26,678 bases of DNA, taken from a virus. Under the pieces are notes generated by a model that saw nothing but the letters and a program-made list of their open reading frames with translations, had not been told where the DNA came from and ran no database searches. Shown here piece after piece: positions 2,154-19,834 of this stretch. Position 1 is the stretch's first letter. Each line of letters begins with the position of its first letter. The stretch lies in the IMG/VR virus record IMGVR_UViG_3300045921_000309, positions 1 to 26,678 of that record. One strand, written 5' to 3'. The position numbers were made by a program, and so were the translations under genes.

Positions 2154-3653
2154 TTAAGTTAATTCTTCTGGCTTCCATTCCCTAGTCTTATCTCCGTACC
2201 TTCTCCAATTAAGAGCTTCTTGAACGGTAAAACAATCTCGTGGAACACCTTCTACATGAATAGCATCTGTTGACATATTATTCATCTTTAAGAAATGGGC
2301 TGGTCCTGCTTCTAGTCCTAAATCTAAAGACAGTAACTCGTATTTACTTCTCTTTCCAAACTTAGACTCATAATCAGTGTCAAGGACTTTTCCTTTTAAT
2401 TGCTTAACTAAATTAGTAACTCCTAATCTTTTTAAGACCTCTCTTCTTTGGTCTACGTTTTCTATCTTTAGAATCTCTTTTGCATCTAATTTATCAACAG
2501 GGGTTTCAACCATCCATTTCTCAACTTGTACACCATTTAAAGTCCAAATAGAGAAACCATCTCTCCATCTATGAGATGGTCCAGTATCACAATGAGCTTG
2601 ATTGTCCTTGTTAATTTTAATGTACTCAGGGAAATCGCAAACTAAACAAAACTCTGAGTGTAGGTATCTAAAGCCCCCTTCTTTGGCACATTCTTCGTAA
2701 GGCTCCCACGCTTTAAATTGAGGTAAGTCTAATCCTAAAACATCCCTACAGGCTTCTACGTAACAAGGGAAAGAAGCCCACATATTTCCTCCTTGATAAG
2801 CCAAGTCCCAACTTTTAAGTCTTTTTTTGAAAGTTTCAAAAGAAATATTTACAAACATCTTACATAACTCCCACTCCCATGAATGAGTAGCAGAATCAAT
2901 AGCAGTTTCGGTAGCTAATCGGGTAGCAGAATCGATAACAGAATTGGGAACAAAATAGGTAGCAGAAGTGATAGCAGAAAGGGCAGTAAAAAGGGTAGTA
3001 GAATTATTAGCAGGAAAGGTAGCAAACCGAGTAATAGAATCGATAAAAGAATTGATAGTAGAACGAGTATCAGTCCAAGTGGCAGACTTGATAGCAAAAC
3101 GAGTAGCAGAAGTGGTAGCAAGAAAGGTAGTAGAAGAGGTAGCAGCGAAGGTGGCAGAATCAGTAGCTAACTGGATAGCAGAGCGAGTAGCAGAAGAGGT
3201 AGCAGAAGAGGTAGCAGGATCAGTAGCTAATTGGGTAGCAAGCCGAGTAGCAGAGCGGATAACAGGCTCGGTAACAAAATAAGTATCAGAATGGGCAGCA
3301 AACTTAATAGCGGAATCAATAGCAAGTTCAGTAGTAATGCGGGTAGCGGAATCAATAATAGCTTCGGTAGCAGCGAAGGTAACAGTATCAATACCAGAAT
3401 CGTAATAAAGAGAAGCAATGGTGCCTGCTACTGCCATCACATAAGGAGAAGGAACAATAATAACTTTAGGTTCTTTTAATCCAGCTACTTTATATAATTC
3501 TTTAATAGCAGGAACTATTTTCTTCTCATCAATTCTATCAGTTCTAAATGCTATCTTAGTCCACTTGTCTACTAACAAAGCACAAGCCTCCTTTTCTTCT
3601 TTAGTTAATCCACCTTCTGCTCTAGTCTTTGTTCTTACAATACTATTTCCCAT
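2154..3653 (-). CDS. DUF6745-like protein with tetrapeptide-repeat domain
   Basis: The 499-residue protein has three parts. Residues 1-85 contain IVPAIKELYKVAGLKEPKVI followed by VPSPY, like the N-terminal Y-x-x-AGL-x-x-P / SP region of DUF6745 proteins. Residues 88-258 are about 42 degenerate four-residue units of the type SATR. Residues 259-499 include HRWRDGFSIWTLNGVQVEKW, then VPRDCFTVQEALNWRR near the end, matching the DUF6745 pattern of a WRDG-WHG-VxxP segment and a terminal EALAWR. The family has no experimentally known role that I can cite. ATG 3653 is preferred over GTG 3659 because AGGTAGGT precedes it; the upstream gene's stop is at 3660. It heads the three-gene cassette. The repeat region is open in other frames too, so those frames are shadows. 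Confidence 0.8.
   Translation of the reverse strand: MGNSIVRTKTRAEGGLTKEEKEACALLVDKWTKIAFRTDRIDEKKIVPAIKELYKVAGLKEPKVIIVPSPYVMAVAGTIASLYYDSGIDTVTFAATEAIIDSATRITTELAIDSAIKFAAHSDTYFVTEPVIRSATRLATQLATDPATSSATSSATRSAIQLATDSATFAATSSTTFLATTSATRFAIKSATWTDTRSTINSFIDSITRFATFPANNSTTLFTALSAITSATYFVPNSVIDSATRLATETAIDSATHSWEWELCKMFVNISFETFKKRLKSWDLAYQGGNMWASFPCYVEACRDVLGLDLPQFKAWEPYEECAKEGGFRYLHSEFCLVCDFPEYIKINKDNQAHCDTGPSHRWRDGFSIWTLNGVQVEKWMVETPVDKLDAKEILKIENVDQRREVLKRLGVTNLVKQLKGKVLDTDYESKFGKRSKYELLSLDLGLEAGPAHFLKMNNMSTDAIHVEGVPRDCFTVQEALNWRRYGDKTREWKPEELT
2880..3392 (-). repeat. 12-bp coding tandem repeats
   Basis: About 42 units of 12 bp, seen on the plus strand as GTAGCAGAANNN variations (for example GTAGCAGAAGAG twice in a row near 3187-3210). 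They encode tetrapeptides such as SATR, LATE, SATS. Unit length is constant while the third and fourth residues vary, which is typical of repeats that change by slippage or recombination. Confidence 0.9.
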
Positions 3654-3659
3654 AATCAC

Positions 3660-4646
3660 CTACCTAAAATTCCCTTCTCTAAATGCAGGATTTACAATCC
3701 CATAGCTTTTCCCATTAACGACTACTCTAACTCTTTTAGGAAGCTTATAGCCCCATACTTCAAAGTAGTATCTATGTAGTTTTTCAAATGACCCATAATA
3801 AGGAGCCCTTGCTACAACTTTGCCATCTTCAGTAATAAGCTCACATTTACTAGCTTTAATTGGAGCAAGCACTAATACTTTATTTTCTCGAGCAGTAGGA
3901 GTGTCGTTTATTTGCTCAGCATGACTCTTTAGTAACCATCCTTTTTCTAGGAAAGTCCTTCCTTTCTCTGTAGCTAGATACGCTAGGGACTCAATAAGCT
4001 CTTTAGTAGGCTTAGCTTTTCTATCTTTTCTTTGGGTTTTATCTTTTTCATTTCGCTTTAGATTTAGCTGATATGTCCAAAAGAAAAACCACTCAGCTTT
4101 CTGCCATCTTCTTTTATCTTTTGAGACAGGCATATCAACAGCGGCTTTTCCATCATAAGAGAAGTTAAACCTTCCTTGACGAGGTACTTGATTATCAGCT
4201 CTATGTACTTCGTTTTTATATTTACTTGATAATTCCCCGCCTCCTCCAAGATATGGGGTATTAATTACTTCTATATTAGAAAGTCCTTCAAATACTTTCT
4301 CCACATCAGCACAGACTAAATCCGCTTTCTCTTTCCGCCAAATATGCTCACAAGCTGGAGAGACTTCAAATTGAATCTTAGGGAAATCTTTAACTAGATT
4401 TCTTACTTCCTTTGCTTGGTTAAGTATCTCAGCTTCAAAGCCGTTAAAGTTATGATTATCACGCCAGCAAAGATGAAAGCGAATAAAGGGACAAAGTCCA
4501 GTTTTAGCAAGTTTTCTTGCAACAGGTAACGAAGACCCAAACCCGTCTACAAAAGAAAAGAACCCTGCTCCAAATCCTTTTGGGTGAGCCTTTAGGATTA
4601 CATCTTCGTAACGGGCACCGCCTAGATAATCGATTGCAAATTTCAT
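3660..4646 (-). CDS. Unassigned 328-residue protein, possible TIM-barrel hydrolase
   Basis: I do not recognise this family with certainty. Residues 23-62 read FSFVDGFGSSLPVARKLAKT then CPFIRFHLCWRDNHNFNGF; further on are FEVSPACEHIW, VINTPYLGGGGEL and FNFSYDGKAAVDMPV. Alternating hydrophobic strands that end in Asp, Glu or aromatic residues, spaced across about 180 residues, resemble beta/alpha-barrel glycoside hydrolases. The last 130 residues contain a basic stretch (KRNEKDKTQRKDRKAKPTKE) and a beta-rich end. No signal peptide. It starts in a four-base ATGA overlap with the helix-turn-helix gene and stops next to the start of the DUF6745-like gene, so all three are one operon. A cell-wall-related role is possible but unproven. 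Confidence 0.75.
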   Translation of the reverse strand: MKFAIDYLGGARYEDVILKAHPKGFGAGFFSFVDGFGSSLPVARKLAKTGLCPFIRFHLCWRDNHNFNGFEAEILNQAKEVRNLVKDFPKIQFEVSPACEHIWRKEKADLVCADVEKVFEGLSNIEVINTPYLGGGGELSSKYKNEVHRADNQVPRQGRFNFSYDGKAAVDMPVSKDKRRWQKAEWFFFWTYQLNLKRNEKDKTQRKDRKAKPTKELIESLAYLATEKGRTFLEKGWLLKSHAEQINDTPTARENKVLVLAPIKASKCELITEDGKVVARAPYYGSFEKLHRYYFEVWGYKLPKRVRVVVNGKSYGIVNPAFREGNFR

Positions 4647-4867
4647 AATTTCTCGTATGGTCTTAATTCAGGTACAATCTGCTTGACTTTAGCATAGTTT
4701 AATTTAGCAGGATGAACGCCTAGCTCTTCAGCAACCCAAGCACAGCTATTTAGGCATACTCCCTTATTTACCCATCTATAGATGATTTGTCTTGAAACAC
4801 CTAACTCTTTAGATGCTTTAGCAAGTGTTCCGTAACGGTCTAAAAACATTTGTTTTATCTTATTCAT
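4643..4867 (-). CDS. Small helix-turn-helix DNA-binding protein
   Basis: A 74-residue protein, MNKIKQMFLDRYGTLAKASK followed by ELGVSRQIIYRWVNKG, in which TLAKASKELGVSRQIIYRW is a good Cro/YdaS-like helix-turn-helix (helix, Gly turn, recognition helix). The rest, AWVAEELGVHPAKLNY, forms the usual following helix. ATG 4867 is chosen because AGGAGG lies just upstream; an earlier in-frame ATG at 4888 overlaps the previous stop and would run through that ribosome site. The gene overlaps the next one by four bases. Probably a transcription factor acting on phage promoters; target unknown. Confidence 0.75.
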   Translation of the reverse strand: MNKIKQMFLDRYGTLAKASKELGVSRQIIYRWVNKGVCLNSCAWVAEELGVHPAKLNYAKVKQIVPELRPYEKL

Positions 4868-4884
4868 TCTTCCTCCTCTAATTC

Positions 4885-5568
4885 TCATATAGATCCTCCT
4901 CTACATCTTCTTATTTCTTTTTTACTTTTCTCTGATATTCTCCAAGACTCAGGGGAAGTTTCAGAGCTAAAACCTTTTACATTAAAAAGACTATTCATTA
5001 AAAAATTTTCTTCTTCTTGGTCATGAGATAAACCTAATAAAAGATGTCCCCATTCATGCATCATAATAGCTATTGATTGTGATACTCTTATTGCTCCAGT
5101 GTTTTGTTTTATTAAAAAGTTTCCAAATCCTATTCCTGCAAGAATGTTCATTTCTCTTTTAGGTTTAAAACCTTTCCAGCATCCAGTAATTGCTCCTCCT
5201 CCTATCCAGTAAGTTTCTTGATATTCAATAGGAGGAAGAACAAAGTAGTGAGCTACTTTATCGACCTTATATTCTTTATTTACTTTAAGCTCTTTATACA
5301 GTCCCCAAATACAATCACTAGCAGTGGTATTCCAAGACAAGCAACCAAAATAGACTTCTGGTGAAATTCTTTTTAGGTACTTAATTTTTAGTGTTACTTT
5401 TTGGCTTGTTAGTTTTTGAAACAATCTATGAGCTCTTTTTATTTCTTTAACTTTATCTTGATAGTAACCACCTATTTCATTTTCAAAGTAGTTATAGTGA
5501 TAAACATTTAAGATTGGTCTTGAACAAGCTAGATTAGTAAGAAGTAGAATAATTAAGTATTTCATCAT
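4885..5568 (-). CDS. Exported zinc-metalloprotease-like protein
   Basis: The 227-residue protein starts with MMKYLIILLLTNLACS, a short hydrophobic signal with a Cys at residue 15; it may be a lipoprotein signal although Asn at -3 is atypical of a lipobox. Near residue 170 is MMHEWGHLLLGLSHD, a HExxH zinc site followed by Gly and a third His, with LMNSLF about ten residues later as a possible Met-turn. Metzincins have HExxHxxGxxH; here one extra residue separates the HExxH from Gly, so the family is uncertain. The product should act outside the cytoplasm, perhaps on host surface or matrix proteins. Several Cys residues could form disulphides. The start is preceded by GAGAGA. It lies 13 bp after the previous gene's stop. 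Confidence 0.7.
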   Translation of the reverse strand: MMKYLIILLLTNLACSRPILNVYHYNYFENEIGGYYQDKVKEIKRAHRLFQKLTSQKVTLKIKYLKRISPEVYFGCLSWNTTASDCIWGLYKELKVNKEYKVDKVAHYFVLPPIEYQETYWIGGGAITGCWKGFKPKREMNILAGIGFGNFLIKQNTGAIRVSQSIAIMMHEWGHLLLGLSHDQEEENFLMNSLFNVKGFSSETSPESWRISEKSKKEIRRCRGGSI

Positions 5569-6150: not shown

Positions 6151-6604
6151 ATAGCTTTACTGACTTTCTCCACCCTTCGCTTTCTACTCTAGGTGACACT
6201 ACTAAGTCAAGAAAATCTTTTATAAAAATGTCAAACACCGTTTTATGCTCTATCATTTTCCAGTATTGACTTTTATAGATTAGGTATAGGTCTAGGGGGT
6301 TACCTTTGTGGTTAAGAAATAAAGTGCTTTTAAAGGCTAATAATTGGTCGTAGGGAAGATATTTTGAGGTTAGGTATACTCCGATACCAACCAAGTTAGA
6401 AGTCTCGTTATAGGGCGATTTTGTGGCTATAAGGTAGTGGTGGTAGTTATGAGGGTAAGCTATAAGTTGGTTCTGAAGGATTAGCTTTGGAAATGAGAAG
6501 CAGGCACGCTTTTTGATACGAGATATTTTCTCGTTTTGCGATTTCTTTTGCCTTGTTTGCGTAGTCTTTAGTTTTTTCTCCAAAGGTATCAGCGAAAAGG
6601 TCAT
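6143..6604 (-). CDS. Hypothetical protein
   Basis: I do not recognise this 153-residue protein. The N-terminal 50 residues are basic (LEKKLKTTQTRQKKSQNEKI) and correspond to a 158-base overlap with the upstream gene; the remaining part is a compact hydrophobic/aromatic sequence (YHHYLIATKSPYNETSNLVG, YLPYDQLLAFKSTLFLNHKG, VFDIFIKDFLDLVV). GGGAGA lies eight bases before ATG 6604, but that site is inside the upstream coding region. No ATG or GTG closer to the upstream stop is present in frame, so the overlap is probably genuine. It overlaps the resolvase start by eight bases. Confidence 0.55.
   Translation of the reverse strand: MTFSLIPLEKKLKTTQTRQKKSQNEKISRIKKRACFSFPKLILQNQLIAYPHNYHHYLIATKSPYNETSNLVGIGVYLTSKYLPYDQLLAFKSTLFLNHKGNPLDLYLIYKSQYWKMIEHKTVFDIFIKDFLDLVVSPRVESEGWRKSVKLYD
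6406..6428 (+). repeat. 23-bp dispersed repeat, copy 1 (inside coding sequence)
   Basis: CGTTATAGGGCGATTTTGTG followed by GCT lies within the minus-strand gene 6143-6604. Two intergenic copies are at 8055 and 9460. Confidence 0.7.
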
Positions 6605-9668: not shown

Positions 9669-9743
9669 AAAGATTTTTAGGTTTAAGTCTTAGGTTACTA
9701 GCCACCACGACTAGGCATAACGCTGTTTTAGAATGCTCATCCT

Positions 9744-9761
9744 AGAATGAATGTTCATTCT
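9744..9761. repeat. 18-bp palindrome, exact copy A
   Basis: AGAATGAATGTTCATTCT: arms AGAATGA/TCATTCT with a four-base centre. An identical copy lies at 10881 and two variants at 9770 and 11120. Probably a protein-binding site. Confidence 0.7.
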
Positions 9762-9769
9762 CTAAGCAT

Positions 9770-9787
9770 AGAATGAGCGTTCTTTCT
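9770..9787. repeat. 18-bp palindrome, variant
   Basis: AGAATGAGCGTTCTTTCT, 26 bp after the exact copy at 9744; the right arm has one change. Confidence 0.55.
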
Positions 9788-9910
9788 AGTTAATTTTAGA
9801 ACTGTGTTTTAGTTTCTCAGCATAAATCCTCCTATTATATATTACTGGCACTATAGCACTGAATCCATCAATCAATCAAATAAAAAAATTAAAAAACTAT
9901 AAAAAAAATA

Positions 9911-9996: not shown

Positions 9997-10668
9997 ATGG
10001 AAAACAATAGCAATAAGCCAACAATAAAATTTATTTTAGATAAAGAAGATTTAGACCTAATCGAAGAAGATTGCAGCCTAATAGAATTTAATAAAAATCT
10101 AAGGCAATTGATCTGCTGCTCGATCAATGATGAAAATCCATATGAAGAGCGAATCGGATGGAATTTGCACCATGAAGGAATTAAAGACCACATATTGATT
10201 CAATTAAATCCACCTAAGCAATGGATTGATATTTTGCAGGAAGGAATGAATTCAATTGAATTTAATTCAGATGGATCTGCAATTCTATCGAATCTCAAAG
10301 GAGAATTTAAAATCGATTCAAATCAAATCATAAAATATAATAAAAAAATAAAATTTATCAATGATACCGACGAAATTGAATCATATTTTTATGATTGTCA
10401 GATATATTTCTTAGAGTATGATTTCTTTAGTCTGAAGGAAGACCTTGAAGACTATGCTCTATATCTATATCGCGAAAATAATGAATATCGCTATGATAGA
10501 ATTGAATTTGATCGATATGAATTTCTCCGAGCATATATGGAGAGGAAATACGACTATTTAAATGATTGGATCAAGAATTCAAATGATGAGAATGAAATCA
10601 ATCAAATCAAATGCATGATGGAATCGATTGAGAAAAGGCAGGATAAGTTTAACCTGTATTTACCTTAA
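9997..10668 (+). CDS. Unknown acidic protein in a self-contained (moron-like) unit
   Basis: The 223-residue protein is unlike any family I know. It is acidic and Tyr/Asn/Ile-rich, with helical segments such as KEDLDLIEEDCSLIEFNKNL and a Tyr-rich stretch YALYLYRENNEYRYDRIEFD, and no signal peptide or membrane segment. Nucleotide usage differs from the neighbours: it is rich in words like ATTGAATT and ATCGA and poor in the CTTAG/CTAG words common elsewhere, suggesting separate origin. It has its own strong promoter, palindromic operator, an AGGAGA Shine-Dalgarno and an intrinsic terminator. Such units are often expressed from prophage or early in infection, for example for exclusion or host modification, but no function is assigned. 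Confidence 0.8.
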   Translation: MENNSNKPTIKFILDKEDLDLIEEDCSLIEFNKNLRQLICCSINDENPYEERIGWNLHHEGIKDHILIQLNPPKQWIDILQEGMNSIEFNSDGSAILSNLKGEFKIDSNQIIKYNKKIKFINDTDEIESYFYDCQIYFLEYDFFSLKEDLEDYALYLYRENNEYRYDRIEFDRYEFLRAYMERKYDYLNDWIKNSNDENEINQIKCMMESIEKRQDKFNLYLP

Positions 10669-10692
10669 TAAAATCCTTAACTAGGAAAGTTT

Positions 10693-10722
10693 AAAGGGAG
10701 CTTTAAGTGGCTCCCTTTTTTT
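10693..10722 (+). terminator. Intrinsic terminator of gene 9997-10668
   Basis: GGGAGC (10696-10701) pairs with GCTCCC (10710-10715) around an eight-base loop, preceded by AAA and followed by seven T residues. Confidence 0.85.
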
Positions 10723-10880
10723 ACTGTACCACTGTGGGACGCTTTCCGTAAACTTTACCGAAAGTAAAACAGCGTTATAGGTTTTTAAGAGCGTAAGGTT
10801 TTTTTACGCTTAATTACGTTTTTTACATACTTACACTCGCTCAAACACACCCACTCACTCACCACACCTCCCTAAGCCTT

Positions 10881-10898
10881 AGAATGAATGTTCATTCT
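10881..10898. repeat. 18-bp palindrome, exact copy B
   Basis: AGAATGAATGTTCATTCT, identical to the copy at 9744, more than 1.1 kb away on the other side of the moron-like gene. Confidence 0.7.
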
Positions 10899-10973
10899 AG
10901 CGGGTAGTTTTTTTTACCAAACTGCTTAGTTTATATTTGATTCCTGAGTAGATTTAAATAGTTAAGTGGTTTT

Positions 10974-11001
10974 CTGCACTAGTATTAGAAAACTAGTGCA
11001 G
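10974..11001. repeat. Perfect 10-bp inverted repeat
   Basis: CTGCACTAGT and ACTAGTGCAG flank the eight-base loop ATTAGAAA. There is no T run on either side, so it is more likely a protein site or a DNA/RNA hairpin than a terminator. Confidence 0.65.
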
Positions 11002-11119
11002 TTAGGGAAGCAAGAACTATGCCAAAACACTGTTTTAGCGGGGGCTAGGACTAGGACATTGGGACGGGATAGGTATAGATTTCGGACGGATTTGGGTAAT
11101 TAGGATGGCAGATCCAGTT

Positions 11120-11137
11120 AGAGTGAGCGTTCATTCT
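11120..11137. repeat. 18-bp palindrome, variant
   Basis: AGAGTGAGCGTTCATTCT; the right arm is identical to the exact copies and the left arm has one change. Confidence 0.55.
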
Positions 11138-11287
11138 ATCCCCCCTATTAGCAAGAATCATGCCAATTTTAGTATCCCTATTGGGGTAGGATTTGTAGGA
11201 TTAGATTGATATTAACCCATTGGGGTCAGGGGAGGGGAGAGGGGGAATTGGGGACTCCCCCAAACAGAGATTTTTTATTTTTTATTC

Positions 11288-11351
11288 TGACACTATCGCC
11301 TGAGTTAGATTTAGGTTTTATTTTTTTTTCTTGGTATGTATTGTAGTGTCA
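11288..11351. promoter_or_regulatory. Paired TGACACTA elements upstream of the structured region
   Basis: TGACACTA at 11288-11295 and its complement TAGTGTCA at 11344-11351 face each other 48 bp apart, directly before the hairpin-rich region. A promoter is likely here, but I see no clear -35/-10 pair. Confidence 0.4.
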
Positions 11352-11364
11352 CCTTGCCTAAGTT

Positions 11365-11885
11365 TTTCTAGTACCGAGCTAGCGAGGTACTAGTTAGTTA
11401 AGTTTAGTTATTTAATACTAATTTACTTATATATTACTTATTTAATTAGTTTATATATTAGTTAAGGGATAACCTCTCTGAGAGAGGGAACTGAGCAAGA
11501 CCAAGCCATTACTAACTAAAATAAAAAAAATTAGTTAGTTTGTACTTGGCTTAACTTAAAGGTTAACCCCCCGTCGGTCGGTCACCTCGCAGTAACTTCT
11601 TTGAACTTCTAGTTTTATACTAGAAGCTAGGCAGGAAATCCTATACTCCCGTTTAATCAAAGCCCTCGCCAAAAACTATTAGGTTCTTGGGACTCCGCAA
11701 GGAAGAGACCAAGTTACTAGCTACCTCTTCCCATGTAGGTTGCTGTCGACGCAGAGCCTACTCACTTAGCTTTTTAAGGAACTGCTCAATCCTAGATTTT
11801 AAACCACAAGTCTTTAAGACTCAGAGTTTATTTTACAAGAAGCAAATCTTAACTTCTCAACAACCAAAATCTTAGGGGTTGTGTA
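11365..11885 (+). ncRNA. Candidate large structured RNA
   Basis: About 520 bp without a credible ORF contain many perfect complementary arms: CTAGTACC/GGTACTAG (11368, 11386), CCTCTCT/AGAGAGG (11473, 11481), ACTAACTAA/TTAGTTAGT (11511, 11531) enclosed by CCAAG/CTTGG, CTTCTAGT/ACTAGAAG (11606, 11619), CTTGG/CCAAG (11686, 11709) containing TCC-GCAA-GGA with a GNRA loop, GGAAGAG/CTCTTCC (11701, 11725), GTAGG/CCTAC (11735, 11757), AGTCTT/AAGACT (11809, 11816), ACAACC/GGTTGT (11860, 11877). The GNRA loop favours the plus strand. Two arms near 11701 compete, so alternative folds are possible. Phages carry large ornate RNAs (ROOL, GOLLD) of similar size; I cannot match this to either by eye. The only frame (TTG start, 11687-11875) looks non-protein. 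Confidence 0.4.
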
Positions 11886-11934
11886 TGTAAGTCTTAATCT
11901 ACTTAAAAATTTTCTAATTGTCCACCCTTTAATA

Positions 11935-11964
11935 TTGACACTAAACATAAACTTATGTCACTAT
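11935..11964 (+). promoter_or_regulatory. Promoter/operator of the ribbon-helix-helix gene
   Basis: TTGACA (11935-11940) with CACTAT at 18 bp (11959-11964) would start transcription at about 11971, the A of the ATG. TGACACTA overlaps the -35, and TGTCACTATCAC overlaps the -10, forming TGACA...TGTCA ends, as for an autoregulated gene. Confidence 0.55.
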
Positions 11965-11970
11965 CACTTT

Positions 11971-12126
11971 ATGGCTAATAGGGCTCATTACATGTACAAC
12001 AAAGAAATCGTTAGGATAACTCTTAGACTGGATAAAACCATTCACTCTAAACTTAAAAAATTAAACTATCGTTCTATAAACGAAGCTATAAACATACTTT
12101 TAGACAAAGCTTTAAAACAAAAATAA
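11971..12126 (+). CDS. Ribbon-helix-helix transcriptional regulator
   Basis: A 51-residue protein, MANRAHYMYNKEIVRITLRL then DKTIHSKLKKLNYRSINEAI and a final helix INILLDKALKQK. The strand VRITLRLD followed by two helices (IHSKLKKLNY, SINEAINILLDKAL) is the Arc/CopG ribbon-helix-helix fold, which binds DNA as a dimer through the strand. ATG 11971 is chosen because the longer frame from GTG 11881 would translate the promoter; ATG 11992 is a further option. There is no Shine-Dalgarno, so a leaderless transcript is likely. It is the first gene of the rightward block, and its promoter carries the TGACACTA word shared by other phage promoters, so it may be their regulator. Confidence 0.75.
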   Translation: MANRAHYMYNKEIVRITLRLDKTIHSKLKKLNYRSINEAINILLDKALKQK

Positions 12127-12169
12127 CTAATGCTAACTTTAAACCAACTTGTTAATATTCCCCCTATAA

Positions 12170-12394
12170 GTGAGCGAATTAAAAGATTTAGAAAACCGTC
12201 TAACCCTATTAGAGTCTCAAATGCTTAATGAGTTACGTCATATAAAAACTTCTATGGACAATTTCTCATTAAAGTTAGAACATATCTTAGCTTTACACTT
12301 AAAAATCATTTATTGGTTATTGGCTGTAATAACAATAACCTTAGTGGGGGTTAAGGGTGTTGAGCAACTTATAAAACTTGGAGGTGTATCATGA
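12170..12394 (+). CDS. XhlA-like coiled-coil membrane protein (holin accessory)
   Basis: This 74-residue protein starts at GTG 12170, directly after an in-frame stop. Residues 1-40 are a heptad-like coiled coil (LKDLENRLTLLESQMLNELR), and residues about 46-62 are one membrane helix (IIYWLLAVITITLVGV). The arrangement is that of XhlA-type proteins, which sit in the inner membrane and help holin-mediated lysis. No Shine-Dalgarno is visible before the GTG; an internal ATG at 12221 would cut the coiled coil. The stop overlaps the next ATG by four bases. Placing lysis genes before terminase is common in several phage groups. Confidence 0.6.
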   Translation: MSELKDLENRLTLLESQMLNELRHIKTSMDNFSLKLEHILALHLKIIYWLLAVITITLVGVKGVEQLIKLGGVS

Positions 12395-12856: not shown

Positions 12857-13334
12857 GCAGTGGGGGATTTATTCTGCTAAAATCTTTAACGACATTGTCG
12901 TTCATGGTCTTAAGGAACACGAGGTAGTTCAAAAATACAAAGACGAAATGCCTCCTGAAGTTTTAGTAACCATCTTTAGGAGGCAAGACCTTAAAAAATC
13001 AGTTAAACATCATTTAGAGTTAGTAGAAAAAGAATTTTTAGAAGTAAATCTTCCCTTAATCTTAGAAGCTAAAGCCTTAGCATTAACAATAACTCATAAA
13101 AAACTAGCTGATATTCTTTCTAACACAGAACTTTTAAACAATCTTTCAGTAGCAGACTTAAGAAGTTTAGTTTCTCAAGCTAAAGAACTAAACGAGATGA
13201 TAAGACTTGAACAAGGTCAATCAACAGAAATTGTAGAACACAGAAACTTAGACAAAGAAACCATTTTGGCTTTAATAGAGGAGGCTAAAAGTGACCCAGT
13301 CCTTAACGGACTACCAGATACAAGCTCTTCTTAA
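12816..13334 (+). CDS. Probable terminase small subunit
   Basis: A 172-residue, helix-rich protein immediately before the large terminase and overlapping it by 44 bases. It begins with an HTH-like segment (FNDIVVHGLKEHEVVQKYKD, residues 24-43) followed by long helices (VKHHLELVEKEFLEVNLPLI; LSVADLRSLVSQAKELNEMI), matching the layout of small terminases: N-terminal DNA binding, then oligomerisation helices. It would recognise phage DNA and feed it to the motor. AAAGG precedes the ATG. The assignment rests on position and helical layout rather than a motif. Confidence 0.6.
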   Translation: MKSPFPSDRKVTNEQWGIYSAKIFNDIVVHGLKEHEVVQKYKDEMPPEVLVTIFRRQDLKKSVKHHLELVEKEFLEVNLPLILEAKALALTITHKKLADILSNTELLNNLSVADLRSLVSQAKELNEMIRLEQGQSTEIVEHRNLDKETILALIEEAKSDPVLNGLPDTSSS

Positions 13335-14760
13335 GCATAAAGAAACTATTGGTAAGTTTCATGCATTTCTTAAAGCTACAAACACTTATCCACATGAAGG
13401 GCAATGGAAAGTAATCTTAGCTTTTTTTAAAGAGAAAAAAACTCGTCTCTTTGTTCAATGTGGAAGAAAGTGGGGTAAATCTTTTTGTGGTTTGTATATA
13501 GCTTGGAGGTTTGCCCTAGAAAATCCAAACTCTTTAACTTACATCATAGCTCCTACTAGGGTTCAAGCTGGTCAAATCTATTGGCAGCCTAAAAGACTTC
13601 AAACTTTTGGTCCTTCGGAGTTTTTAGATGATTCACTAAAATCTGAGTTTACTATCTACTTTAAAAACTCTTCTCAAATCATTCTTGGTGGTTCTGATAA
13701 AGCTCAAGCTCTAAGAGGTATTACTCCTGACTTACTTATCTATGATGAAACTAGAGACATAGACGAAGAATTTGATAACGCTATGCGTCCTAACCTTGCT
13801 GCTAAAAACGCAAGTATACTTTCTTTCTCTACACCTCCCGACAAAGAGTGTCATTACACAAGAATGAGGGATTTTTGGTTAAAGCAAGTAGCTAAAAACG
13901 AACCTGCTTACTTTTACATAGAAGCCCCTACATCATCTAATCCACTAATAGATAAAAAATTCTTAGAAGAAGAAAAGCAAAGACTATCAGAAACAGGAAG
14001 ACTAGCTGAATATGAACGAGAGTACGAAGGTAAATACATTCCCGGTGGTGCTAGTGCCGTTATTCCTATGTGGCATAAGTACAAAGACAAAATAATTAAA
14101 CCCCATCACTTAATGATGAAGATGATTGAGGGTGAAAAGAAGAAATGGGACTTTTACACTTTCTCAGATCCAGCTCAATCTTGTTTTGCTGTTTTGTTTG
14201 TTGCTCATAACTCTTATACGTCTCAGCTTTTAATCTTAGATGAAATCTATGAACTAGACAGAATGAAGACCCATGCTTCTAGGATTTTTCCTGTAATCCA
14301 AGAAAAGTGCTTATCTATTTATGACAGAGACGACCTTTGGTCTCATTACTATGACCCTGCTGAAAGTTGGTTTCAGGTTTCTGTTTATGACATGTTTGAT
14401 GTTTCTTTGTTAGCCGTTAAAAAACGGGGGGCTAAATCTCCTGAAAGGGTTTCTTTAATCAAAGACATGATTACAACCCCTAATACCCTCTTTGTCTCCG
14501 ATAGATGTAAAAAATTTGATTGGGAAATATCTAACTGGTGCTACAAAGAAGATGGAACCCTTCCTGATAAAGACGACCACCTAATCGACAACCTTTTTTA
14601 TGTCCTTGAGGTTACAGCCTTCTCTGTTAGACCTGAAGTAGACAAAGAACTATTCCCTCTTGAAGATGGGGAAGAATTTGAAAAAGACACTGGAACTTTT
14701 GAGGACTTTATGAAAGAATTAGTCCTTAAACAAGACGCCTTTGCTTTTATGGATAAATAG
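13291..14760 (+). CDS. Terminase large subunit
   Basis: The 489-residue protein is the ATP-driven packaging motor and nuclease. The ATPase domain has a Walker A variant GRKWGKS at residues 58-64 and Walker B LLIYDE at 148-153, followed by the coupling motif FSTPP (179-183). The segment SNPLIDKKFLEEEKQRLSE and YEREYEGKYIPGG leads to an RNase-H-like nuclease domain with FSDPAQS (Asp 293), LLILDEIYEL and DDHLIDNLFY near residue 430 as the metal ligands. Full family length. The start is GTG 13291, six bases after AGGAGG, within the end of the small subunit gene. Confidence 0.95.
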   Translation: MTQSLTDYQIQALLKHKETIGKFHAFLKATNTYPHEGQWKVILAFFKEKKTRLFVQCGRKWGKSFCGLYIAWRFALENPNSLTYIIAPTRVQAGQIYWQPKRLQTFGPSEFLDDSLKSEFTIYFKNSSQIILGGSDKAQALRGITPDLLIYDETRDIDEEFDNAMRPNLAAKNASILSFSTPPDKECHYTRMRDFWLKQVAKNEPAYFYIEAPTSSNPLIDKKFLEEEKQRLSETGRLAEYEREYEGKYIPGGASAVIPMWHKYKDKIIKPHHLMMKMIEGEKKKWDFYTFSDPAQSCFAVLFVAHNSYTSQLLILDEIYELDRMKTHASRIFPVIQEKCLSIYDRDDLWSHYYDPAESWFQVSVYDMFDVSLLAVKKRGAKSPERVSLIKDMITTPNTLFVSDRCKKFDWEISNWCYKEDGTLPDKDDHLIDNLFYVLEVTAFSVRPEVDKELFPLEDGEEFEKDTGTFEDFMKELVLKQDAFAFMDK

Positions 14761-15043: not shown

Positions 15044-17083
15044 ATGCAAAACCTAGCCCTAGAACAGTACATAGCAGACGGAAGAAAAGCCCTAAAACCC
15101 ATCTGGTGTGAAAAAGACTGGAAAAGTAAAACAACGTTTGTAAAATGGTTTTTAGAGAATCTCTCAGCTTTAGAAGAAATTCATGAATCTAGGATAGTAT
15201 CTCAACAAAACTATCTTGCTTGGTATCTTGGGTGGTATGACTCTAACCTTGAGTATCGTCTAATTAGACCAACCAGAAGAAACTATAGCTTAACCGACTA
15301 CTCTGTCCCTACAATGATAAATCAACTCTTCTTCCTTACAGAGGCTTCTGTAGCTAAAGAGTCTCTTCAAAAACCTACTTTTGAAGTTTTACCTAGCAAC
15401 GTAGAAGAATCAGGAGACAGGTTATCTTCTAGGTCAATGAAACCACTCCTTGATACTCTTGCAAGAAAAAATAACTCAGAAATTCTTTTTCAAGAAAACT
15501 CAAGAAGAACTAAAGTTTTTGGAGAAAATTACATCTATGTTGGTTGGGATAAAGACTTTACTACTTTTGATGACTCTGGAACTACTATTATTGGCGATGT
15601 GGTTATTCGTGCTATAGAACCTTATTACGTCTTATACCCAACTAGAAAGAGCTGGGATGAAGTCGAATATGTAACTATACTTTGGGATGTTCTTAATAAA
15701 GAAGAAGCTGAAAAGATATATAAAGTTTCCCTAGAAAAAGATTCTACTAACACAGTTTATGGCTTTCAAAGACCAGATACTCCAACTAAAACTCCTGATG
15801 AAGTAGTAGTCTATAAATTCTTCCACAAACCTACTGTTCATGTCCCTAATGGTATTGTAGCTACCATTATTGGAAATAAAGTCGTTGAGTTTAATACAGA
15901 AAAATATCCTTATGACCATAAACAACTTCCTTTAGTTAGAAGAACTGATATTGATGTTCCAGGAAGCGTATTTGCTGAATCTGTTTATCGTTGGGCAGTT
16001 CCTATTCAACACCAAATAAACAAACACTACTACCTAAACTCAAGAGCTATTCTTCTAGCAAGCCATCCTAAGTGGATGATGTATAAAGGAGCTTGTGACA
16101 TTAAATCTCTAGGAAATGCTGCAACTATAGTCCAAGTTAAACCAGGAATGGGTTATCCTCAGCTAGCCGTTTTTAACTCCATCTCCCAAGATAATCTTCA
16201 GCTTCTAAGTTTATACGAAAGAAATTTACAAATAGTTTTTGGTATTCAAGGCGTTTCTCTTGGAACTCCTCCTCCGGGTTCAAGAAGTAAGAACATGCTT
16301 GATTTTTATGCAGAAGAAGAAAGACGAAGAAATTCAACTCAACTAATCAAACACAATGAATGCATCAGACAAGTCTTTCAATTAGCCGCTTCTGTTGTTG
16401 GTTCTTACTATCCAGTAAATCCTGAAAGAATGGTTAGGATTCTTGGTAGTGATGCTAATTGGGAAATTAGAAAAATTGGAGACTTTAGATTCTCTTCAGA
16501 GTATGAAGTCATTGTTCAAAACTCAAACGGATTCTCTGATTCTATTCAAGGAAGAATGGAAGAAATTGAAAAACTTCTTCAAATGTTTCCCGGTTCCATA
16601 TCTCCTCAACAAGCCTTTAATATTTTGCAATATAAGATACCTGAAAAGTATTACGACATTGTGACAGTAGCTCTTAAATCTGCTCAAGCAGAAAATGAAA
16701 TGTTCTTAGATGGAAATCTTTTACAAGACCCTGATATTGGAGAAGACCATTTAGTACACTTAGAGCAACATTATTTACTTCTTCAAACTAGAAACTACAA
16801 AGAAGACACTCAACTTAGAAAAGAATATTTTGAACACCATATTGGAATTCACGAAATGGTTTTATATGATAAAATTCAAACTAACCCAATGTTAGGTGAA
16901 ATGGTAAAAAGCAAATTCCCATATTTCCCAGTATTCTTTAGACCAGAACCAGAATTGCCACCGCCACCACCACCTATGCCACCACCTATGCCAAATGAAG
17001 ATTTATCAAAACAAGGTGCACCACAAGAGCTACCTCCTCAAAATGGTGTACCTCAAGAAGAAATGAATATGATTAACCAATAA
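15044..17083 (+). CDS. Portal protein
   Basis: A 679-residue protein in the standard position between terminase and scaffold. The N-terminal part (residues 1-110, with RIVSQQNYLAWYLGWYDSN and RNYSLTDYSVPTMINQLFFL) and the later segments GENYIYVGWDK, RAIEPYYVLYPT, DVPGSVFAESVYRWAVPIQH (then QINKHYYLNSRAIL) are typical of large podovirus-type portals: wing, crown and stem helix. The dodecameric portal forms the DNA channel at one capsid vertex. The end is proline-rich (PELPPPPPPMPPPMP) and disordered. The start has no Shine-Dalgarno and lies one base after the upstream stop. Confidence 0.85.
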   Translation: MQNLALEQYIADGRKALKPIWCEKDWKSKTTFVKWFLENLSALEEIHESRIVSQQNYLAWYLGWYDSNLEYRLIRPTRRNYSLTDYSVPTMINQLFFLTEASVAKESLQKPTFEVLPSNVEESGDRLSSRSMKPLLDTLARKNNSEILFQENSRRTKVFGENYIYVGWDKDFTTFDDSGTTIIGDVVIRAIEPYYVLYPTRKSWDEVEYVTILWDVLNKEEAEKIYKVSLEKDSTNTVYGFQRPDTPTKTPDEVVVYKFFHKPTVHVPNGIVATIIGNKVVEFNTEKYPYDHKQLPLVRRTDIDVPGSVFAESVYRWAVPIQHQINKHYYLNSRAILLASHPKWMMYKGACDIKSLGNAATIVQVKPGMGYPQLAVFNSISQDNLQLLSLYERNLQIVFGIQGVSLGTPPPGSRSKNMLDFYAEEERRRNSTQLIKHNECIRQVFQLAASVVGSYYPVNPERMVRILGSDANWEIRKIGDFRFSSEYEVIVQNSNGFSDSIQGRMEEIEKLLQMFPGSISPQQAFNILQYKIPEKYYDIVTVALKSAQAENEMFLDGNLLQDPDIGEDHLVHLEQHYLLLQTRNYKEDTQLRKEYFEHHIGIHEMVLYDKIQTNPMLGEMVKSKFPYFPVFFRPEPELPPPPPPMPPPMPNEDLSKQGAPQELPPQNGVPQEEMNMINQ

Positions 17084-17093
17084 GGAGTTTATT

Positions 17094-17252
17094 ATGGATA
17101 GATTAACAGAATTACAAGCAGAAGCATTTAGGATTATAAGATTTATAGAACAAGCACAAGTTAAACTTCAACAAATAAATAAGGAGATAAATGAGCTTGA
17201 AACCACTAATAACAATAAAACAGAAGAAAGAGATAGCGAACCTCAAGGATGA
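17094..17252 (+). CDS. Small coiled-coil protein after portal
   Basis: A 52-residue frame, MDRLTELQAEAFRIIRFIEQ followed by AQVKLQQINKEINELETTNN and a charged tail. AAGGAG stands eight bases before the ATG and 10 bases after the portal stop. Its last 62 bases overlap the next gene in another frame, and both starts have good ribosome sites. Helical with heptad spacing; possibly a virion or scaffold accessory. Function unknown. Confidence 0.6.
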   Translation: MDRLTELQAEAFRIIRFIEQAQVKLQQINKEINELETTNNNKTEERDSEPQG

Positions 17253-17385
17253 CATTCAAGACTTTGCTGATGCTATCAATGCCGAAGTAACAGCAGAGCT
17301 AGCTACTGAAGATGGGTTTGAGCATTTAGTGTTCACGCCTAAATCTTGGGCTAAAAGAGAACAACCAAAGCTATTTGAAGATTAA
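17191..17385 (+). CDS. Small hypothetical protein
   Basis: The 64-residue protein (MSLKPLITIKQKKEIANLKD, DIQDFADAINAEVTAELATE and a C-terminal TPKSWAKREQPKLFED) is helical and acidic, without a known motif. AAGGAG lies five bases before the ATG inside the preceding small gene. The following scaffold promoter begins 13 bp after the stop. Confidence 0.6.
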   Translation: MSLKPLITIKQKKEIANLKDDIQDFADAINAEVTAELATEDGFEHLVFTPKSWAKREQPKLFED

Positions 17386-17397
17386 CCTTAAAAGGCT

Positions 17398-17430
17398 TTG
17401 ACACTAAAGTTTATTTTGTGACATTATAAT
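17398..17430 (+). promoter_or_regulatory. Promoter of the scaffold gene with TGACACTA element
   Basis: TTGACA (17398-17403), with TGACACTA at 17399-17406, is followed by CATTAT at 18 bp or a perfect TATAAT (17425-17430) at 21 bp. With TATAAT the start point falls on the ATG at 17437, giving a leaderless message; no Shine-Dalgarno is present. Confidence 0.6.
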
Positions 17431-18622: not shown

Positions 18623-19834
18623 ATGTCTTTCGGGGGTACCGATTTACAGAAAGCTCTTGACGATGTAAACGCACAAGAGCTGTTTAAGATAGATTTTCTC
18701 GAGTATTACGAGAATACTTTTAATACTGCTTCCCCTTTCTGGGAAAGGGTTAAAAAGCCAAAAACTTTTGTAGGTAAGAGACTTGAATTTCCAGCTCCTT
18801 TAGGCTTTATGGGTGCTGCTGGTTCTGGAAAGATACCAGAGAGTCGTCCTGCTAAGTATGCAACCGTAAATATCACTTCTAAGAAAATGTATGCGAAAGG
18901 TCTAATAGAGAGGGAGGCTCTTGGTGAGGCTTCAAACTCTAAGGGTGCTTTCGTTGATGCTCTTAAGGAGTTGGTAAGAAAAACTGCAGAAGCTGATACT
19001 TTTAACCATCAAAGGGCTGCTTTTGGGAGTGGAACTGGGGCTCTTGGTACGATTCAGTCTGTAGTTGATAACGGAGGTGGGCAGTACACTTTAGTTATTA
19101 CTACAGGTACTTGGAAGAGTGCTAACTGGGAAGAAGAGATGCTTGTAAACATTCAGTCAGGTAATACCGACTTGTTTGTTATTAGTTCCGTTACTGAATC
19201 TACAAGAACAGTAGTTGTTCAAAGACAAGCTGGGGGAACTAAAGTCCCTGCTGTTAACGATGTAGTGTTTATGCAAAGCTCTGAGAATAACGATATTCTT
19301 GGGCTTGAGGGAGTATGCTTAGCTACTTCTGGTACTTTGTATGGAGTTAACGTTCAAAGAAGGTGGAAGTCTTATCAAATTCTTAATTATGGTGTAGCGA
19401 TTGACCATAAGCTTTTTAATAAGCTTTGTTTAGGAGTTGAAAAGTCCACTGGTAAAACTCCAAAGTTAGCAATTACTTCATATCTACTTTATGAAGCAGT
19501 GCTAAACACAATGGAAAGCCAAAAGAGGTATGCTCAGCCTAGCTCTAACACTGGTAACTACTCATTTAGGGGAGTTGAGATTATGACCTCATCTGGACCT
19601 ATTGAGCTTTTCCCTGACAGATTCTGTAGGGATGATATGGTGTATGTTCTTAACCCTGATTATATAGCTTATTACAGAAGACCAAATTCTGGATGGGTGA
19701 ATGAGGACGTTAAGAATCCTTATGGAATGTTGAGGGTAGTGGATGATGACCAGTTTGAGCTAAGACATGCTACTTATGGTCAATTATTTATTGCTCCTAC
19801 CTTTCAAGGTGTAGCAACTGGTGTATTAGCATAG
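18623..19834 (+). CDS. Major capsid protein
   Basis: A 403-residue protein following the scaffold. It has an N-terminal helical arm (LQKALDDVNAQELFKIDFLE), a mid region EFPAPLGFMGAAGSGKIPES and KKMYAKGLIEREALGEASNS typical of the extended loop and spine helix of HK97-fold capsid proteins, a helix near residue 115 (FVDALKELVRKTAEADTFNH), an inserted beta domain (GTIQSVVDNGGGQYTLVITT) and the P-domain strands near the end (YVLNPDYIAYYRR). It forms the icosahedral shell. GGGAGG lies before the ATG and can be sequestered by an upstream sequence. Identity rests on position, size and fold pattern. Confidence 0.8.
   Translation: MSFGGTDLQKALDDVNAQELFKIDFLEYYENTFNTASPFWERVKKPKTFVGKRLEFPAPLGFMGAAGSGKIPESRPAKYATVNITSKKMYAKGLIEREALGEASNSKGAFVDALKELVRKTAEADTFNHQRAAFGSGTGALGTIQSVVDNGGGQYTLVITTGTWKSANWEEEMLVNIQSGNTDLFVISSVTESTRTVVVQRQAGGTKVPAVNDVVFMQSSENNDILGLEGVCLATSGTLYGVNVQRRWKSYQILNYGVAIDHKLFNKLCLGVEKSTGKTPKLAITSYLLYEAVLNTMESQKRYAQPSSNTGNYSFRGVEIMTSSGPIELFPDRFCRDDMVYVLNPDYIAYYRRPNSGWVNEDVKNPYGMLRVVDDDQFELRHATYGQLFIAPTFQGVATGVLA

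Follow-up and report, generated by a model that had tools for sequence, protein, structure and literature searches.

Just upstream of the late genes of a tailed phage lies an interval (11365-11885) for which an earlier note had proposed a large structured RNA. The locus raises the question whether this block acts as RNA, and if so from which strand, or as DNA. The window, i.e. the whole stretch of DNA analysed here, is the phage's 26,678-base IMG/VR record, in which the late genes occupy the plus strand of the right half and the early genes the minus strand of the left half. The late genes serving as landmarks are:

13291-14757, plus strand: terminase large subunit (TerL), by PHROG match
15044-17080, plus strand: portal, by PHROG match
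18623-19831, plus strand: major-capsid-like protein, by position and conservation in relatives

Elsewhere, the window encodes an EcoRI-type adenine methyltransferase (377-1351; Pfam PF13651, 400 bits), near which no EcoRI nuclease gene was noticed, and, at 2154-3659 and 1377-1799, two minus-strand short-repeat proteins of the SATRLATDSATxxAT and GDVSGxxGDVS types. One other sample yielded a pair of contigs, L002 and L021, belonging to this phage species. Identity between the window and this sister phage is 98 % for TerL, 97 % for the capsid and ~97 % for the DNA across the TerL-portal stretch; the GDVSGxxGDVS-type repeat protein is present in two differing copies in the sister contig.

The noncoding interval and the apparent DNA sites around it

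The interval was described as lacking a credible ORF, and this holds, the longest frames reaching 62 aa on the plus strand (from a TTG start) and 44 aa on the minus strand. The perfect complementary arms listed in the same place do exist, among them a stem of 9 bp at 11511-11519/11531-11539, and ten pairs, one of them G-U, make up another stem at 11604-11613/11619-11628, but as evidence for a structured RNA the arms fare worse, their number being barely above chance: 33 arms of at least 5 bp were counted against a dinucleotide-shuffle mean of 25.4 (6 of 100 shuffles were as high), and 13 of at least 6 bp against a mean of 7.4 (7 of 200 shuffles). Since the excess over dinucleotide shuffles is slight, the list of arm pairs alone is no evidence. 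The reported GNRA motif (CTTGG-GAC-TCC-GCAA-GGA-AGAGA-CCAAG) is present on the plus strand at 11686-11713; the hairpin is not formed in the minus-strand fold predicted below.

Several apparent DNA sites surround the interval. Four near-identical 20-bp palindromes, TAGAATGAACGTTCATTCTA, are found at 9743-9762, 9769-9788, 10880-10899 and 11119-11138 (expected by chance, 0) and are likely phage repressor operators. The motif TGACACTA occurs nine times (at 6194, 7088, 7826, 9269, 9912, 11288, 11344, 11936 and 17399) against 0.8 expected, mostly in promoter-like noncoding stretches and often with an inverted TGTCA nearby, which makes it a candidate regulator site overlapping -35 elements. Two promoter-like features lie between the block and the late genes:

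11935-11960, plus strand: TTGACACTA -35-like element, presumed late promoter; shares the repeat AATATTGACACTA with the promoter of the gene at 9997
11924-11896, minus strand: promoter-like site TGGACA-17-TAGATT (consensus scan, 9 of 12 matches)

Such crowded intergenic surroundings, i.e. the four palindromes, the nine TGACACTA copies, an AT-rich tract and divergent promoters, speak for the main rival to an RNA, namely that the block is a DNA control region (a replication origin, late-promoter control or a packaging site) whose repeats are protein sites or DNA structures.

Folding of the two strands

When folded as RNA, the minus strand of 11365-11885 gave a z-score of -4.9, with none of 100 shuffles as low, against -2.8 for the plus strand. 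On the minus strand, the best-folded domain, hereafter the core (11460-11892), reaches -135.6 kcal/mol (z -4.1); its ensemble diversity there is 37.4, compared with a shuffle mean of 113 and again with none of 100 shuffles as low, whereas the plus strand (-109.0 kcal/mol, ensemble diversity 114.6) resembles its shuffles. The minus-strand diversity is also the lowest in a comparison with 366 further windows of 433 nt from the two strands of this phage, and the energy excess of the core is the largest among the 64 windows tested, one coding window nearly equalling it. According to these models, the fold of the core is single and well defined, and it is that of the minus strand. Its predicted parts are:

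11460-11892, minus strand: candidate structured noncoding RNA, core domain of ~430 nt, delimited by fold and conservation
11882-11860, minus strand: first (5') hairpin
11854-11848/11466-11460, minus strand: outer closing helix (mean pair probability 0.83)
11792-11782/11498-11488, minus strand: 11-bp stem closing the multiloop (mean pair probability 0.94)
11488-11792, minus strand: central eight-arm multiloop, on which MFE and centroid agree
11780-11762, minus strand: multiloop arm
11761-11735, minus strand: arm with a 7-nt loop, GUCGACA, holding a 6-nt palindrome
11732-11700, minus strand: arm of 8-bp and 5-bp stems (pair probabilities 0.96 and 0.80) with a UAAC loop
11697-11658, minus strand: arm of 8-bp and 7-bp stems, from pair probabilities; carries the L002 substitution at 11686
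11651-11632, minus strand: multiloop arm
11628-11604, minus strand: arm with a 10-bp stem, from pair probabilities; carries the L002 substitution at 11628
11593-11554, minus strand: multiloop arm
11550-11500, minus strand: arm of 7-bp and 9-bp stems (pair probabilities 0.96 and 0.99)
11487-11473, minus strand: hairpin 3' of the 11-bp stem

The outer helix additionally encloses two side hairpins, at 11846-11832 and 11830-11800. The GUCGACA loop is a possible self-kissing loop, a role suggested by its palindrome, and among about ten loops one such palindrome may well occur by chance.

From a DNA element, similar folds of the two strands would be expected, whereas the defined fold appears on the minus strand only and with RNA parameters only; under DNA parameters both strands are alike and unremarkable, with a poorly defined structure. 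The fold signal thus depends on RNA pairing, with 23 of the 140 pairs of the minus-strand fold being G-U. Therefore, the strand asymmetry and the result with DNA parameters favour a minus-strand RNA, and we consider a DNA control region rather unlikely.

If the late transcript began with a long structured leader on the plus strand, e.g. an antiterminator or regulator, this would agree with the position of the block directly upstream of the late genes, and no terminator in the plus direction was found between the core and these genes. The leader would, however, have to be formed by a strand that folds like random sequence in the core, and the presumed late promoter at 11935 lies on the downstream side of the block, facing away from it, which leaves this explanation very improbable. 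Of the earlier proposal, a large structured RNA is therefore retained as the best reading, but on the minus strand and directed away from the late genes. The choice of strand matters, as the visible hairpins alone had pointed to the wrong one.

Conservation in a sister phage and the search for relatives

The minus-strand candidate was also compared with its counterpart in L002, from which the core differs by two substitutions and one 2-nt indel in 426 nt (99.5 % identical). In TerL and four small late genes taken together, 15 of 251 fourfold synonymous sites are changed, so that the core (2 of 426) is the more conserved (Fisher p 1.6e-5), and it is likewise more conserved than the AT-rich linker adjoining it (Fisher p about 1e-5):

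11394-11459: AT-rich linker of variable sequence, bounding the conserved core on the left; five substitutions in 11400-11449

The majority of the substitutions between the window and L002 in this region fall in the linker, and because the linker varies freely, conservation stops at the end of the predicted outer helix. The two substitutions in the core are both located in helices, and on the minus strand neither breaks its pair: G-U becomes A-U in L002 at 11686 and A-U becomes G-U at 11628, each shifting the folding energy by ~0.1 kcal/mol; the 2-nt insertion of L002 sits at the base of the arm 11500-11550. These two one-sided, compatible changes are consistent with the fold, and taken alone they are weak evidence; a covarying double change was not found between the two sequences.

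It might be argued that the block is a functionless noncoding stretch that folds well by chance and was conserved through recent common descent or local recombination. The comparison involves only two close sequences, the adjacent small genes have also diverged little (4 of 83 fourfold sites), and another window is nearly equal in energy excess. Nevertheless, the conservation of the core exceeds that of both the synonymous sites and the AT-rich linker, and its ensemble diversity remains the lowest against the 366 windows, making chance an improbable explanation.

Scans with TerL, the MCP, a degenerate terminase Walker A pattern and the TerL alignment recovered the wider family, i.e. more than 100 phages with TerL proteins about 30-44 % identical; the members examined share the gene order and have capsids about 29-51 % identical. 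When a covariance model of four core arms (R1, 136 nt) was run over ~1.4 Mb of family and candidate sequence, only the window and L002 matched convincingly, and L238 gave a weak match (E 0.095). Exact-pattern scans of IMG/VR with core segments likewise gave L002 as the only real match, the others being rejected for having little in common beyond the seed, and blastn against phage and plasmid records returned nothing or short matches at chance level. In 386 cyanobacterial genomes, R1 gave three weak matches (best E 1.9e-4), which were rejected as chance; the one inspected closely (L459) overlaps an ORF end and owes its alignment mainly to a terminator-like hairpin.

The large fold was found in none of the relatives examined. 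The leader of the closest phage of differing sequence, L290 (TerL 44 %), has no comparable fold; in this phage and L369 (G003), the late operon starts with a largely noncoding leader of ~1.9 kb holding long imperfect direct repeats, GATA and CA microsatellites and AT tracts. Many relatives possess a noncoding stretch upstream of the late operon that is mostly unremarkable as an RNA fold. Their long gaps upstream of TerL had at first been read as the same RNA, a reading rejected because the folds are mostly unremarkable; the gaps of L181, L231, L213 and L209 hold starts of small leftward genes, promoters and one covarying hairpin, not a large RNA. About 20 relatives (L181, L184, L193, L209, L213, L231, L234, L264, L268 and others) have this hairpin immediately upstream of the late promoter, about 1530-1560 nt before TerL; its GAGCGAAGCGA loop is invariant and its AT-rich stem covaries strongly. 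One group of relatives has a leftward and a rightward promoter with the hairpin between them, close to the rightward one. The GAGCGAAGCGA loop contains GCGAAGC, an unusually stable DNA mini-hairpin. The covarying hairpin near the late promoter and the mostly weak RNA structure of the relatives' noncoding stretch add to the case for DNA control.

The window carries a hairpin of its own to the left of the linker:

11368-11393: separate 8-bp hairpin with the loop GAGCTAGCGA, resembling the relatives' GAGCGAAGCGA loop

The homology of the two hairpins is uncertain. The distance from the window's hairpin to the presumed late promoter at 11935 is ~540 nt, core included, compared with roughly 20-25 nt in the relatives by alignment. 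Based on this difference in spacing, the core looks like a lineage-specific addition, a view that depends on the uncertain hairpin homology.

Known RNA families and the possible role of the candidate

In phages and prophages, ROOL is often, though not universally, encoded near tRNA genes, and its multimers form a nanocage that kissing loops and A-minor contacts hold together. Phages and prophages carry it as a large, intricately folded noncoding RNA in which several hairpins surround junctions (PMC12286853). GOLLD is an ornate phage-encoded RNA, in many cases longer than 800 nt and often near tRNA islands, and both RNAs assemble as RNA only (PMC12286853).

The earlier note had considered a divergent member of either family; such membership is not recognisable. 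Rfam cmscan gave no matches at gathering thresholds over the whole window and nothing credible at E <= 10 in 10650-12200; specifically, no ROOL covariance-model match was seen in either search, nor was the conserved 3' domain of GOLLD matched at gathering or at E <= 10. Likewise, neither a group I or group II intron catalytic core (E <= 10) nor HEARO (RF02033; 10650-12200, E <= 10) was matched. The E-value mode of the search does see remote members, because a divergent HEARO was detected in L002 at E 0.23.

The latter belongs to an insertion near the small-terminase gene of L002 (about 4059-5420, corresponding to about 12824 of the window) that is absent from the window and consists of an IsrB-like gene with the divergent HEARO-like RNA just upstream. 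The encoded RRXRR protein is 62-64 % identical to cyanobacterial plasmid proteins and 69 % to a protein of a Synechococcus MAG. A short copy of the end of the IsrB element (GACTAAAGTCGGGGGCTTGTAAGGAGTATGGCTTT), perhaps a solo element end, lies downstream of the portal gene at L002 9850-9890, a position filled in the window by ~180 bases of different sequence (17249-17428). The core is distinct from this guide RNA: the insertion lies ~0.9 kb away and in L002 only, whereas the core is present in both phages and has no adjacent ORF of the IsrB kind.

The candidate resembles ROOL as a large folded noncoding phage RNA with hairpins around junctions, and GOLLD as a phage-encoded ornate RNA, the candidate being known in both comparisons from its predicted fold. 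One palindromic loop in that fold recalls the kissing loops of ROOL. Unlike ROOL, the candidate has no Rfam match, no nearby tRNA genes (ARAGORN found none in the 26.7-kb window) and a core of ~430 nt; unlike GOLLD, it has neither an Rfam match nor a tRNA island, and against the more than 800 nt of many GOLLD RNAs stands a well-defined domain of ~430 nt, which is a predicted domain and not a mapped transcript length. By analogy, the best reading is an RNA similar in kind to ROOL and GOLLD, and we claim identity with neither.

Taken together, we give about an even chance to the minus strand of 11460-11892 encoding a free-standing structured noncoding RNA of ~430 nt or more, directed leftward and probably acting in trans as a scaffold or particle, and we keep it at the level of a candidate. 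We infer its transcription, ends, function and any multimer formation as follows. Transcription would run leftward, probably driven by the promoter-like site 11924-11896 a short way upstream of the late genes, and the RNA would then begin near 11889, immediately ahead of the first helix; promoter-like sites are equally frequent in shuffled sequences, and what supports this one is its position. No terminator was found on the minus strand near the 3' end of the core. The transcript would then fold into the outer helix, the side hairpins and the 11-bp stem closing the eight-arm multiloop, and would most likely act in trans during infection as a scaffold or particle, by analogy with ROOL and GOLLD. 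It is tempting to speculate that the candidate, encoded on the strand opposite the late operon, represents a new class of ornate phage RNA that is unrelated to ROOL and GOLLD and may form dimers or multimers via the palindromic GUCGAC loop, a fuller proposal that we regard as doubtful.

To our knowledge, few large ornate phage RNA classes are known, and their functions are open. If the candidate is a further, unrelated class, located between divergent operons and away from tRNAs, it would suggest that phages have repeatedly evolved large folded RNAs.
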